Source: Nitrospinota bacterium
Lineage (GTDB): Bacteria; Nitrospirota; Nitrospiria; Nitrospirales; UBA8639
NCBI GenBank assembly: GCA_022572725.1
Contig: JACZVJ010000018.1
Span: 1-37,504 of the forward strand
DNA length: 37,504 nt
Direction: 5' to 3'
Within the stretch, counting starts at the first letter, position 1. Every line of letters begins with the position of its first letter. Positions 23,855 to 36,201 of the stretch are shown here, one piece after another. The notes beneath the pieces are model-generated. The model worked only from the letters and a program-made list of their open reading frames with translations, searched no databases and had not been told where the DNA came from. Both the position numbers and the translations under genes were made by a program.

Positions 23855-25639
23855 TCAGGCCATAGCCATTTGACCCTTTTTGAGTTTGGGCGTGATCTCC
23901 GCTGGTGAAAGCGGTGGACTCAAAAAATAGCCTTGGATAGCATCGCAGCCTCGTTCTCGAAGGAATTCGAGCTGGGCCCTCGTTTCGACCCCCTCGGCAG
24001 TGACCTTAATTCGCAGGCCGTGGGCGAGCGCGATCATTCCGCTTGCAATCGCGGAATCCGCTTGACTGGCGGGAATGTCTCCTATGAAGGATCGGTCAAT
24101 TTTCAAGGTATCAATGGGGAAGCACTTGAGATAGCTCAGGGAGGAATATCCCGTACCAAAGTCATCGATGGAAATCCGGATCCCCAAATTTTTCAGTTCT
24201 TTCAATCGGCTGGTAGAGGCACCATTACTTTCAAAGAAGAGGCTTTCTGTGAGCTCAAGCTCCAGAAATTGAGAATCCAGCCCGGTCTCTTTAAGAATTC
24301 GATCCACGATTTCAACAAAGAATTTCTGACGGAACTGCCTTGCCGAGAGGTTCACCCCGACCGTCGTGAGCGGGAGTCCCGCTTTTTGCCATTTCTTGTT
24401 TTGCTGGCACGCGGTCCGTAACACCCACTCTCCAATCGGGACGATCATCCCATTTTCCTCAGCCAAAGGAATGAAGTCATCAGGCTGAATCAAGCCACGG
24501 TCCGGGTGTTTCCACCGCAGAAGGGCCTCCATCGCAATGATGCGGCCGCTTTTCATCTCAACTTGCGGTTGGTAGTAGAGCAGAAATTCCTCTCGCTCCA
24601 ATGCCCGGCGCAGGCTGTTTTCCAAGGCCAGATGCTGAGAGGCCTTACCGTTCACTTCAGTGGTGTAAAACCGGTACGTATTTCGGCCCTGCCGTTTGGC
24701 CCGATACATGGCCATATCAGCATTTTTGATGAGGGTTTCCGGATCTTTTCCATACTGAGGGTAAATGGCAATGCCAATACTGGGTGTGATAAACAGTTCC
24801 TGATCTTGTACCGTGATAGGGAGCGCCACGATTTGGAGAAGTTCTTGGGCTACCCTCGTGGCATCTTGAACTGTCCCGATTCCTTCCAAAATCACCGTAA
24901 ATTCGTCCCCTCCCAATCGCGCGACCGTATCGCTCTTCCGCATGCGAGAACGAAGCCGCTCGGCTACCACTTTGAGAACCTGATCGCCGACATCGTGTCC
25001 CAGTGAATCATTAATGATCTTGAAACGATCCAGGTCCAGGAACATCAGCGCCAAATGTTGGCTGCTCCGCTCGGCACGCGCTAAGGCTAAGGATAGGAGT
25101 TCCTTGAACAGTGTGCGATTGGCCAACCCGGTCAGCGCATCATATTGCGCCAGGTACGCCATTCGCTCCTCCGCCCGTTTTCGTTCAATGGCATACCGAA
25201 TGGAACGCTCGAGCAGGGTCGCGTTGATCTGCCCTTTGACCAGGGAGTCCGCCGCGCCAGCCTTAATCGCCTCAGTGTCGATGCTGTGATCAGCCTGGGC
25301 GGTGAGTATGATCATAGGGGCTTTACACCCGTTGTCAATGGCCTCTCGAAGGAGTTCCAAGCCCGTCCGTTCGCCCAGCCGGTAATCAAGCAAATACACA
25401 TCATGGACGTGGCGCTTGATGGTATCGAGCGCTCCTTCATACCCGAGGATCCATTCCAACTCAAACCGCTTCCCTTGGGCTTCGGATAGCAACTGCCTTG
25501 TCACGACACAATCTTCCTCTTTTCCGTCAACCAACAGCACTCGAACTGGCCCGCTATCCATTTCAGCCTCCGCTTCCCTTGGCCGTATTTCCCGCAATGG
25601 ACTCTTTAGAGCGACCTTCTTCATCGCCGGCATGGCCAT
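23855..25639 (-). CDS. response regulator with GGDEF and EAL domains (c-di-GMP turnover)
   Basis: A 594-aa protein with a receiver domain (about 32-150; phosphorylatable D85 in LLDYRLG, K135), a GGDEF domain (about 165-325) and an EAL domain (about 340-585). GGDEF is intact at 243-247 and the inhibitory I-site RxxD (R234-D237) is present. EAL is intact as EALLR (371-375), with ELTES, DDFGTGYSS, KIDRSF and AEGVET. Both diguanylate cyclase and phosphodiesterase activities are therefore possible. The start may be the ATG at 25633, which has better spacing from GGGGA than that at 25639. No cognate histidine kinase is nearby. Confidence 0.93.
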   Translation of the reverse strand: MAMPAMKKVALKSPLREIRPREAEAEMDSGPVRVLLVDGKEEDCVVTRQLLSEAQGKRFELEWILGYEGALDTIKRHVHDVYLLDYRLGERTGLELLREAIDNGCKAPMIILTAQADHSIDTEAIKAGAADSLVKGQINATLLERSIRYAIERKRAEERMAYLAQYDALTGLANRTLFKELLSLALARAERSSQHLALMFLDLDRFKIINDSLGHDVGDQVLKVVAERLRSRMRKSDTVARLGGDEFTVILEGIGTVQDATRVAQELLQIVALPITVQDQELFITPSIGIAIYPQYGKDPETLIKNADMAMYRAKRQGRNTYRFYTTEVNGKASQHLALENSLRRALEREEFLLYYQPQVEMKSGRIIAMEALLRWKHPDRGLIQPDDFIPLAEENGMIVPIGEWVLRTACQQNKKWQKAGLPLTTVGVNLSARQFRQKFFVEIVDRILKETGLDSQFLELELTESLFFESNGASTSRLKELKNLGIRISIDDFGTGYSSLSYLKCFPIDTLKIDRSFIGDIPASQADSAIASGMIALAHGLRIKVTAEGVETRAQLEFLRERGCDAIQGYFLSPPLSPAEITPKLKKGQMAMA

Positions 25640-33766: not shown

Positions 33767-34183
33767 TTAGGACAAAGGATAATTCATGGCTTTTAATTTG
33801 AGGTGTCTCCGCTCGAGGGTTCGAACCATCCGACTTAACACCCTTTCAGCAATTCTGGCATCTTCTGAGGTGATCGCAGAAAAAAAGACTCCCACCCGAT
33901 TCTCCCGTAAATGCCGCACCACCCCATCGACGTTAATTTCATCATCCCCAACGGAGAGCTTGACCTGGACTTTTTGTTTAACCTGATAGAGTGAAACCTT
34001 GTCTCGGGGCAATGCCAGGAGGACGCCTTGAAGGCTGAGATCAACCACTTTGGCCGCTAAGAATTGCTCTTCCTCGATAGCAAGCCCTGCCTCTACTTCG
34101 AGGCCGATGGGCACCTGAACACGTACCCCCGCACGTTCTCCCCCTTTGCTCAACCCTGTCGTGGAATGGGTCTCATCTTTCAT
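33767..34183 (-). CDS. PilZ-domain protein (c-di-GMP receptor)
   Basis: A 138-aa protein consisting of one PilZ domain. The c-di-GMP binding residues are visible as RAGVR (RxxxR, 17-21) and DLSLQG (DxSxxG, 48-53), followed by the expected strands (VQVKLSVGDDEINVDGVVRHLRENRVGVFF). The ATG at 34183 is preferred over a frame opening 72 codons earlier, because the extra part has a random-looking Cys/Trp composition. It is likely an effector of c-di-GMP made or degraded by proteins such as the GGDEF-EAL protein encoded 8 kb away. Confidence 0.88.
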   Translation of the reverse strand: MKDETHSTTGLSKGGERAGVRVQVPIGLEVEAGLAIEEEQFLAAKVVDLSLQGVLLALPRDKVSLYQVKQKVQVKLSVGDDEINVDGVVRHLRENRVGVFFSAITSEDARIAERVLSRMVRTLERRHLKLKAMNYPLS

Positions 34184-34437
34184 GTTTTGCCACCAGAAGA
34201 AAAAGATTGATCCATCGGAAGGTAAGCCAGGAAACCATTTTTGCGAGCGGTTAAGAGTCCAAATCCACCTGCACCTGCAAATATCTTGGGCAAACCGATG
34301 AAGGTACTGTCCTATTGGGCAATTTCCCTCCCGCCGGAGAATAGAGTTCCATTCATGAACTCGTACCGGTAAGAGTATCAATCGGCACGAATTCGACAAA
34401 ACTTAATTCGACACAACATAAGAAGAAAAGCACGAAC

Positions 34438-34729: not shown

Positions 34730-34748
34730 TTGTATCCGATTAGATACC
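34730..34748 (+). promoter_or_regulatory. palindromic operator-like site 1
   Basis: TTGTATCCGATTAGATAC is an inverted repeat of GTATC/GATAC with TTGTATC, a 6-bp spacer, then GATAC. It matches site 2 at 35751-35768 at 16 of 18 positions with the same spacing. It lies about 160 bp upstream of a sigma54-like element, a distance usual for enhancer sites. Confidence 0.5.
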
Positions 34749-34889
34749 GAGCCAGGCTCAATCGGAGACATGTTGATGGTCTCGATTCCATATACTTCCA
34801 CTTACAACAAGCTCCATCCCTTTGATTTTCTGAACCAAAACAGGTGCTTAAAGCCTCCTTCGTTTGAGTGAAAGAAAAGCCTCCCCTGT

Positions 34890-34906
34890 TTGGCATTTGG
34901 ATTGTT
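34890..34906 (+). promoter_or_regulatory. sigma54-like element upstream of the response regulator
   Basis: TTGGCATTTGGATTGTT has the -24 GG with correct spacing to a -12 element, but the latter reads TTGT instead of TTGC. It closely resembles the element at 35886-35902 (14 of 17 positions) and lies about 110 bp upstream of the gene. Confidence 0.4.
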
Positions 34907-35016
34907 TTAAGATTCAGTGGAGGAAAAAGCTCTAGATTCGTGTTCAAGCAGCACCACGAAATCCCAACCCTTTCTGTACCAAAGGGCCTCATACGAGTCC
35001 ATCGGGTGAACAAGTG

Positions 35017-35556
35017 ATGTTCAAAGCATCCATACGCGGTCTTTTCGCCTGGCCCCAGAAAATCCAGGAATCCCCACCGCTACCGGCCGACCCGGTTGAG
35101 TCTTCACCACCCGTAAGGATTCTCCTTGTGGACGACGAAGAGACCAACCGGAAATTTTTACATCTCACCCTTGAGCGTTACGGGTATAAATGTGCAGAAG
35201 TCGAAAACAGCTCAGCGGCAATCCAATGGCTCAAAGAAAACGAGGCCGATCTTATGATTACGGACATATTCCAGGGATGGGTCCGCTGGGAGAATGGATG
35301 GCGTATACCCATACCAACCGGCCTGGAATACCTTGAAAAGCTTGCGGCAAGCCCCTTGATACTTCCACCTACCATTATCCTCAGCGGAGCTTTGCACTCT
35401 CACCCAGCTTATGGGGCCCGAGCCCTCAAAGCCGGCGCCGTTGCCATTTTGGACAAACCATGTTCCCTTTCCCACCTTTTAGCTACGGTAGCCCGTGCTA
35501 CCCAGTGCAATACAGATTTTCCCCACCGAATCAGGCAGGATCAATCCCAGCTTTAA
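35017..35556 (+). CDS. single-domain response regulator with an inserted loop
   Basis: A 179-aa protein from the ATG at 35017 (a GTG immediately before is possible). A receiver domain occupies about 33-165: acidic pair D39-D40 in LLVDDEE, phosphorylatable D83 in MITDIF, S123 in IILSG and K147 in LDKP. The loop after D83, normally a few residues (MPxMDG), is expanded to about 17 residues with three Trp (FQGWVRWENGWRIPIPTG). There is no output domain. The gene is preceded by a palindrome and a sigma54-like element. No histidine kinase is adjacent. Confidence 0.85.
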   Translation: MFKASIRGLFAWPQKIQESPPLPADPVESSPPVRILLVDDEETNRKFLHLTLERYGYKCAEVENSSAAIQWLKENEADLMITDIFQGWVRWENGWRIPIPTGLEYLEKLAASPLILPPTIILSGALHSHPAYGARALKAGAVAILDKPCSLSHLLATVARATQCNTDFPHRIRQDQSQL

Positions 35557-35740
35557 TGGAGATTTCCAAGAAGGTAGCCGGGAAGGAACCAGGGATAGCC
35601 ATGAAAGAAGCGTAATGTCCGAAGTCTTGACTGGTCGCGGTTTCGCATTCTAGGCCGGTGGAGGAGAGCATCACACCCTCCGTCAACGGAATTAAGAGGA
35701 GGCTAGGGAGGTTTTACAAGACGGATTAATCCCAAGCATT

Positions 35741-35770
35741 GGATACAGAATTGTATCCAAGTAGATACAA
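35741..35770 (+). promoter_or_regulatory. palindromic operator-like site 2
   Basis: Overlapping inverted repeats: GGATACA (35741-35747) with TGTATCC (35752-35758), and TTGTATC (35751-35757) with GATACAA (35764-35770). The second pair matches site 1 at 34730. It lies about 135 bp upstream of the sigma54-like element at 35886. The rest of the 35557-35955 gap has no gene. Confidence 0.55.
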
Positions 35771-35885
35771 TCTTATGTTTTATTCAAGAGTCCGTACCAT
35801 TTTAAAGTTTGAGGTCTTATTAATTTTCATAGTGAAAACAAATAGTTGTGTGATATTGGCCAAATTTTCTCCTCTTGGAAAAAAG

Positions 35886-35902
35886 TTGGCATTTAGGTTG
35901 CA
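35886..35902 (+). promoter_or_regulatory. sigma54-type promoter
   Basis: TTGGCATTTAGGTTGCA fits the -24/-12 consensus (TGGCA, then TTGCA) with GG and GC exactly 10 bp apart. Initiation near 35913 would give a 43-nt leader before the ATG at 35956. Confidence 0.6.
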
Positions 35903-35955
35903 GAGATATCATTCGTAAACAACAAAAACTGGGTATCAATGTTAGGAGGACAGCC

Positions 35956-36201
35956 ATGGCGCTCACAGTAATCAGCATTGGAATCTCCACAACCCTTGTA
36001 GCGTTGGTGGTTCTCCACCGGGTCTGGTCGATTAAACCGACCAGGGAATCCAAACCATCCCTTTCAGCTCAAATTTACCGTTTGTGGACGTGGAACGGTA
36101 ATAGAAATCACCACCAAATTTTTCGAGAACCAGATGGTGAGGGAATTTTGGATGGAGTGGCTACGGGTAATACTGAGGAGCCAAAAGGACAAAACCGATA
36201 G
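35956..36201 (+). CDS. small single-span membrane protein
   Basis: An 81-aa protein with an ideal Shine-Dalgarno (AGGAGG, six bases before the ATG). Residues 2-22 form one hydrophobic helix (ALTVISIGISTTLVALVVLH), followed by a positively charged juxtamembrane stretch (HRVWSIKPTRESK) and a polar tail (YRLWTWNGNRNHHQIFREPDGEG). The expected topology is N-out/C-in by the positive-inside rule. A sigma54-type promoter and a palindromic site lie upstream. No family was recognised. Frames opening further upstream are not supported. Confidence 0.6.
   Translation: MALTVISIGISTTLVALVVLHRVWSIKPTRESKPSLSAQIYRLWTWNGNRNHHQIFREPDGEGILDGVATGNTEEPKGQNR

Follow-up and report, generated by a model that had tools for sequence, protein, structure and literature searches.

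The window considered here, a stretch of 37,504 nucleotides, carries a gene for a stand-alone receiver-domain protein and, downstream of it, a gene for a small protein with a predicted membrane helix, and each of these is preceded by a palindrome of the form GTATC-N6-GATAC and by a sigma54-like -24/-12 element. The features of the two regions are the following:

34732..34747, + strand: palindrome 1, an exact match (one of eight in the genome) in composite geometry, its end 143 bp from the -24 element; proposed as the putative activator site of the response-regulator promoter
34765..34769, + strand: GAGAC, read from the sequence, in the +22 register relative to palindrome 1; possibly a degenerate proximal half-site of that palindrome, weak taken alone
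34890..34905, + strand: sigma54-like -24/-12 element TTGGCATTTGGATTGT, with the GG kept and the -12 GC weakened to GT
35014..35556, + strand: putative target gene 1, a stand-alone receiver-domain protein of 180 aa (Response_reg, PF00072, E=7e-18); an alternative ATG start is possible at 35017
35741..35746, + strand: GGATAC half-site; its GATAC precedes that of palindrome 2 by 22 bp, in the same register as in relatives
35750..35771, + strand: palindrome 2, perfect over 22 bp with 8-bp arms (ATTGTATC-CAAGTA-GATACAAT), its GTATC core at 35753-35768 and its end 118 bp from the -24 element
35886..35901, + strand: sigma54 -24/-12 element TTGGCATTTAGGTTGC, a full match to TGGCAY-N5-TTGC
35956..36201, + strand: putative target gene 2, a small protein of 81 aa predicted to have a single membrane helix at its N-terminus; a strong ribosome-binding site (AGGAGG) lies upstream of the gene

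The receiver protein retains the acidic pair, the phospho-Asp, the Ser and the Lys, and has an insertion of about 15 residues after the phospho-Asp (MITDIFQGWVRWENGWRIPIPTGLEYL); a Pfam search with the small protein returned no family match. A preliminary description of this DNA had reported that the two genes share one upstream layout, and that layout was confirmed throughout: TTGTATCCGATTAGATAC at 34730-34747 and TTGTATCCAAGTAGATAC at 35751-35768 are identical at 16 of 18 bases, the element at 35886 is a full match and that at 34890 has T for the -12 C, and the start-to-start distance from palindrome to -24 element is 160 bp for the response regulator and 135 bp for the small protein. The exact core TTGGCATTT-N3-TTG occurs in the window only in these two elements. 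Taken alone, the palindrome has only mild significance within the window (with one mismatch allowed, two copies are reached in 7 of 100 shuffles), and the strength of the case therefore lies in the pairing and in its recurrence across the genome. When palindrome and promoter were searched as one pattern (palindrome, 98-150 bp, TGGCAYN5TTG), a Markov model with the dinucleotide make-up of the window yielded 0 composites in 45 Mb.

Pattern searches of the 3.17-Mb assembly found GTATC-N6-GATAC eight times, versus once for the reversed pattern. The preliminary description had raised the prospect of palindromes scattered inside genes; all eight instead lie between genes and are followed downstream by a sigma54-like site. 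The genome has three copies of the exact core TTGGCATTT-N3-TTG, two of them the window elements, and every copy has a palindrome at a distance of 113-143 bp. A single rpoN gene (contig C161; Sigma54_DBD, E=6.6e-57) and about 14 sigma54 activators are present, which answers the two gene-content checks that had been proposed. The promoters outside the window are listed by contig and position of the palindrome:

C26, 2882, - strand: exact palindrome, at 143 bp, before a stand-alone receiver gene
C26, 3164, + strand: one-mismatch palindrome, preceded at 22 bp by a degenerate copy, and a full sigma54 element, before a receiver-PAS hybrid kinase gene
C40, 5551 and 5572: one tandem palindrome pair and a -24/-12 element with two mismatches, before a gene for a ComEA-like (helix-hairpin-helix) protein
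C79, 2356: exact palindrome before a stand-alone receiver gene
C79, 3375: exact palindrome and a sigma54 site with one mismatch, before a zinc-ribbon protein gene
C158, 2828: exact palindrome and a sigma54 site with two mismatches, before an activator-type gene

The putative targets in the source genome are mostly signalling proteins, and a half-site search of the same genome gained no further gene. The earlier suggestion of a small co-regulated signalling unit is borne out insofar as the two window genes appear to share a regulon; that regulon, however, is not confined to two genes but would extend to at least nine promoters in the genome, and the likely activator gene (see below) lies elsewhere than the proposed unit.

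To place the arrangement in a wider setting, 60 relatives were searched for the palindrome followed after 98-128 bp by TGGCAY-N5-TTG, and this composite was found in 27 of the 60, with no control match. A wider search, in which TTGC was required, covered 396 genomes of the phylum, split by a kinship column into 144 of the same order and 252 others; here the composite was present in 66 of 144 genomes of the order versus 1 of 252 in the rest of the phylum (p about 3e-33, kinship ignored), and the reversed control matched in 0 of 396. Among 11 named Nitrospira, Nitrospiraceae or Nitrospirae genomes, the exact composite was found in two, Nitrospira sp. nzgw278 and one Nitrospiraceae MAG, and the match in the latter is identical in coordinates and sequence to the single match outside the order. 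That match is flanked on one side by a different activator of the PAS type and on the other by a CoA-transferase-like gene and, because of these neighbours, is treated as a separate case.

Features that the search pattern did not demand were conserved as well. A second palindrome-like match, often degenerate, lies within 48 bp in 44 of 61 distinct sites, and in 39 of these 44 the distance is exactly 21 or 22 bp, the usual register for second sites in the composites of relatives (upstream or downstream) and one that would place two dimers on one helix face. TTG is followed by C in 93% of the 61 sites, part of which were selected with TTGC while the earlier 36 came mostly from the TTG-only search, and the next base is T in 70%, as in the canonical -12 TTGCT. 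Both features lend support to these being real promoters. The distances from palindrome to -24 element fall into two clusters, one near 108-113 bp and one near 117-121 bp, which differ by about one turn of the helix. Since the homologs of the window receiver have diverged (about 31-47% identity) and have no composite nearby, the window promoters were not footprinted by orthologs and the zinc-ribbon gene was used instead; its orthologs from seven genomes all retain the palindrome and the sigma54 site despite differing surrounding DNA.

These results bear on an alternative, namely that the two layouts resemble each other by chance or as copies of a small mobile or duplicated element, with no regulatory meaning. 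In its favour, the two window sites are separated by about 1 kb in a single assembly, and short palindromes may be remnants of other elements; copies of this kind would need long shared flanks, however, and this is already contradicted by the two upstream regions, which, judged by eye, have no obvious likeness outside the motifs. Moreover, the six central bases are free to vary while the additional features just described are conserved, and the pair is found again in many genera, in front of unrelated genes, with a control count of 0. We regard this explanation as having next to no likelihood. That palindrome and promoter act together, which had been put forward earlier as an inference, is supported by their co-occurrence across genome and order, the zero control matches, the spacing and the accompanying TTGCT.

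Another possibility is that the palindrome is bound by a regulator of another kind, for instance one like RhpR, that modulates promoters which happen to be of the sigma54 type. RhpR is an OmpR-type regulator and not a sigma54 activator. In Pseudomonas syringae, RhpR of the RhpR/RhpS system binds exactly GTATC-N6-GATAC, but its bound sites lie in varied places, also inside genes, and no link to sigma54 is described for them (PMC4191427), whereas the sites reported here are tied to sigma54 promoters at enhancer distance and are often paired at 21-22 bp. The identity of the palindromes, which comprises ten defined bases, may be a coincidence, and we consider an RhpR-like regulator very unlikely.

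A candidate for the activator was found beside the palindrome promoters themselves. Contigs C26 and C79 each break off in one and the same NtrC-type gene (L057, 1-230; L059, 1-180), and the two ends are identical over more than 100 bp at the 3' end and divergent before it, so that the split is probably an assembly break at strain variation. When the contigs are joined, four palindrome promoters flank the activator gene, those of the zinc-ribbon and receiver genes of C79 and those of the receiver and hybrid kinase genes of C26. The encoded protein is an NtrC-type response regulator with a receiver (PF00072), an AAA+ domain with GAFTGA (PF00158) and a Fis-type HTH (PF02954; L048/L057) that carries LQRTYFARLVKQK (LQRTY). 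An ortholog with at least 57% identity is present in 45 of 60 relatives, and composites occur in 25 of these 45 versus 2 of the 15 relatives that have no ortholog (p = 0.004, kinship ignored). Four relatives (G003, G019, G031 and G017) share a locus with an ApaH gene, the zinc-ribbon gene with its composite, an ABC-type substrate-binding protein, a histidine kinase (of the HAMP-GAF type where tested) and the activator, and in a genome of another family (G053) the activator ortholog has, about 2.5 kb away, a kinase gene that carries an exact composite. Many loci of activator orthologs have no palindrome within about 8 kb, and 9 of 12 genomes of genus g3 have the ortholog, yet no exact composite was found in the sample of that genus. 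Genomic linkage and co-occurrence nevertheless make the C26/C79 regulator the most likely activator. In the g3 loci (e.g., L157 and L160) the ortholog and its adjoining kinase are kept, the zinc-ribbon gene is absent from the two loci read, and the recognition helix is QRSYLARVLK versus QRTYLSRLLK. The change from QRT to QRS was ruled out as the cause of the g3 misfit, as one genome (G012) has both QRS and the composite.

It could also be that the sigma54 regulon is real and another enhancer-binding protein is in charge of it, e.g., the C158 activator or a PrsR-type protein encoded on C69. The genome offers about 14 activators to choose from, and palindromes lie upstream of the C158 gene and of two distant homologs (L175 and L176), in tandem in the homologs. 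A C158-type protein, however, is present in only 3 of 60 relatives versus 27 of 60 with composites, and the recognition helix of its homologs is an unrelated one; for these two reasons the C158 activator looks like a target. With respect to PrsR, the published box differs from GTATC-N6-GATAC in that it includes TTTACA and is placed at 32-92 nt from the sigma54 motif (PMC1569441). Against the PrsR model TIGR02915 (cut-off 502.6 bits), the C26 candidate falls short with 403.4 bits and the C69 protein passes with 608.7 bits, and the latter is taken to be a separate, true PrsR on the ground of that score. From these two proteins, we judge control by another enhancer-binding protein to be improbable. 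On contig C158 (L060, 1-1600), the activator frame loses homology at about 1510-1580, and the ORFs beyond look foreign and include a secreted protein of a type that we take to be associated with Planctomycetes; the contig may be chimeric.

Taken together, the explanation that accounts best for these data, and one that we hold to be probable, is a single activator acting through a shared enhancer on a sigma54 regulon that includes both window genes. From the sites, their pairing, spacing and spread, rpoN and the activator gene, we infer that GTATC-N6-GATAC, often accompanied at 21-22 bp by a second and in many cases degenerate copy, serves as the enhancer at which the C26/C79 regulator, phosphorylated by the histidine kinase usually encoded beside it, would bind about 105-145 bp upstream of the promoter. 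DNA looping and ATP hydrolysis by the activator would then open the promoter. In the source genome, the regulon would comprise the window receiver and the small membrane protein together with the two other stand-alone receivers, the receiver-PAS hybrid kinase, the zinc-ribbon and ComEA-like proteins and the activator-type gene. Counting against this explanation are the first window promoter, which lacks the -12 C and has a single palindrome at 143 bp, and three other sigma54 sites in the genome with one or two mismatches.

NtrC binds glnA-type tandem enhancers as two dimers on one helix face, upstream of a sigma54 promoter by at least about 100 bp. The system described here resembles NtrC in its paired sites, their upstream distance and the receiver-AAA+-Fis architecture, and differs in palindrome and spacing; the candidate itself is not NtrC, given its 402 bits versus the NtrC cut-off of 559. 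A closer parallel is the PrsK/PrsR system and its PEP-CTERM box, with TTTACA located 32-92 nt before the sigma54 motif (Haft et al. 2006; TIGR02915; PMC1569441). Both have an NtrC-type regulator, a kinase, and a motif, sometimes repeated, with a sigma54 site before many scattered genes, and the PrsR system was found by the same phylogenetic-profile logic; unlike the PEP-CTERM box, the motif here is GTATC-N6-GATAC at about 105-145 bp, and, in contrast to PrsR targets, none of the targets looked at, in a non-systematic way, was identified as a PEP-CTERM protein. A literature search found no description of a GTATC-N6-GATAC/sigma54 regulon; the motif is absent from a Desulfovibrio sigma54 study (PMC4641369), and Nitrospira goes unmentioned in a cross-phylum sigma54 study of 2025 (PMC12316311). 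Judged from sequence, the pairing of palindrome and sigma54 site most likely marks a previously undescribed regulon of an NtrC-type activator, which would follow a logic already known from PrsR/PEP-CTERM with a different enhancer and spacing. The specificity of the signature (0 control matches in 396 genomes) makes such a regulon readable directly from DNA and names its likely activator.

Gene content and the composite in one named Nitrospira genome point to Nitrospirales as the order concerned. To our knowledge, almost no genetic tools exist for Nitrospira, which are nitrifying bacteria. Genes preceded by the composite in relatives, with gene starts picked by a simple rule, encode PAS-type histidine kinases, small CxxC proteins, Tle1-like hydrolases, a RoxA-like cytochrome-segment protein, secreted and outer-membrane-like proteins and short membrane proteins. 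We lean slightly toward an order-specific signalling hub, in which one two-component activator would drive receivers, hybrid kinases, a second activator and small zinc-ribbon and envelope proteins; if true, this would amount to a layered signalling cascade in bacteria for which hardly any work on gene regulation exists. In genus g12 (L230-L235, L098-L100, L122), a 73-aa family, MKCxRCSGLMV...RCxxCGNxxDPLIH, recurs behind composite promoters, and the one member run had no Pfam match. The Tle1-like hydrolase family, of which one member was tested against Pfam, lies behind the composite in several genomes (L317, L213, L215, L221 and L228), among them Nitrospira sp. nzgw278. In the window itself, a PilZ-domain protein (33767-34399, - strand) is encoded divergently from the receiver gene and a receiver-GGDEF-EAL protein (23855-25639, - strand) lies 10 kb from it; these neighbours may link the signalling genes of the window to c-di-GMP.
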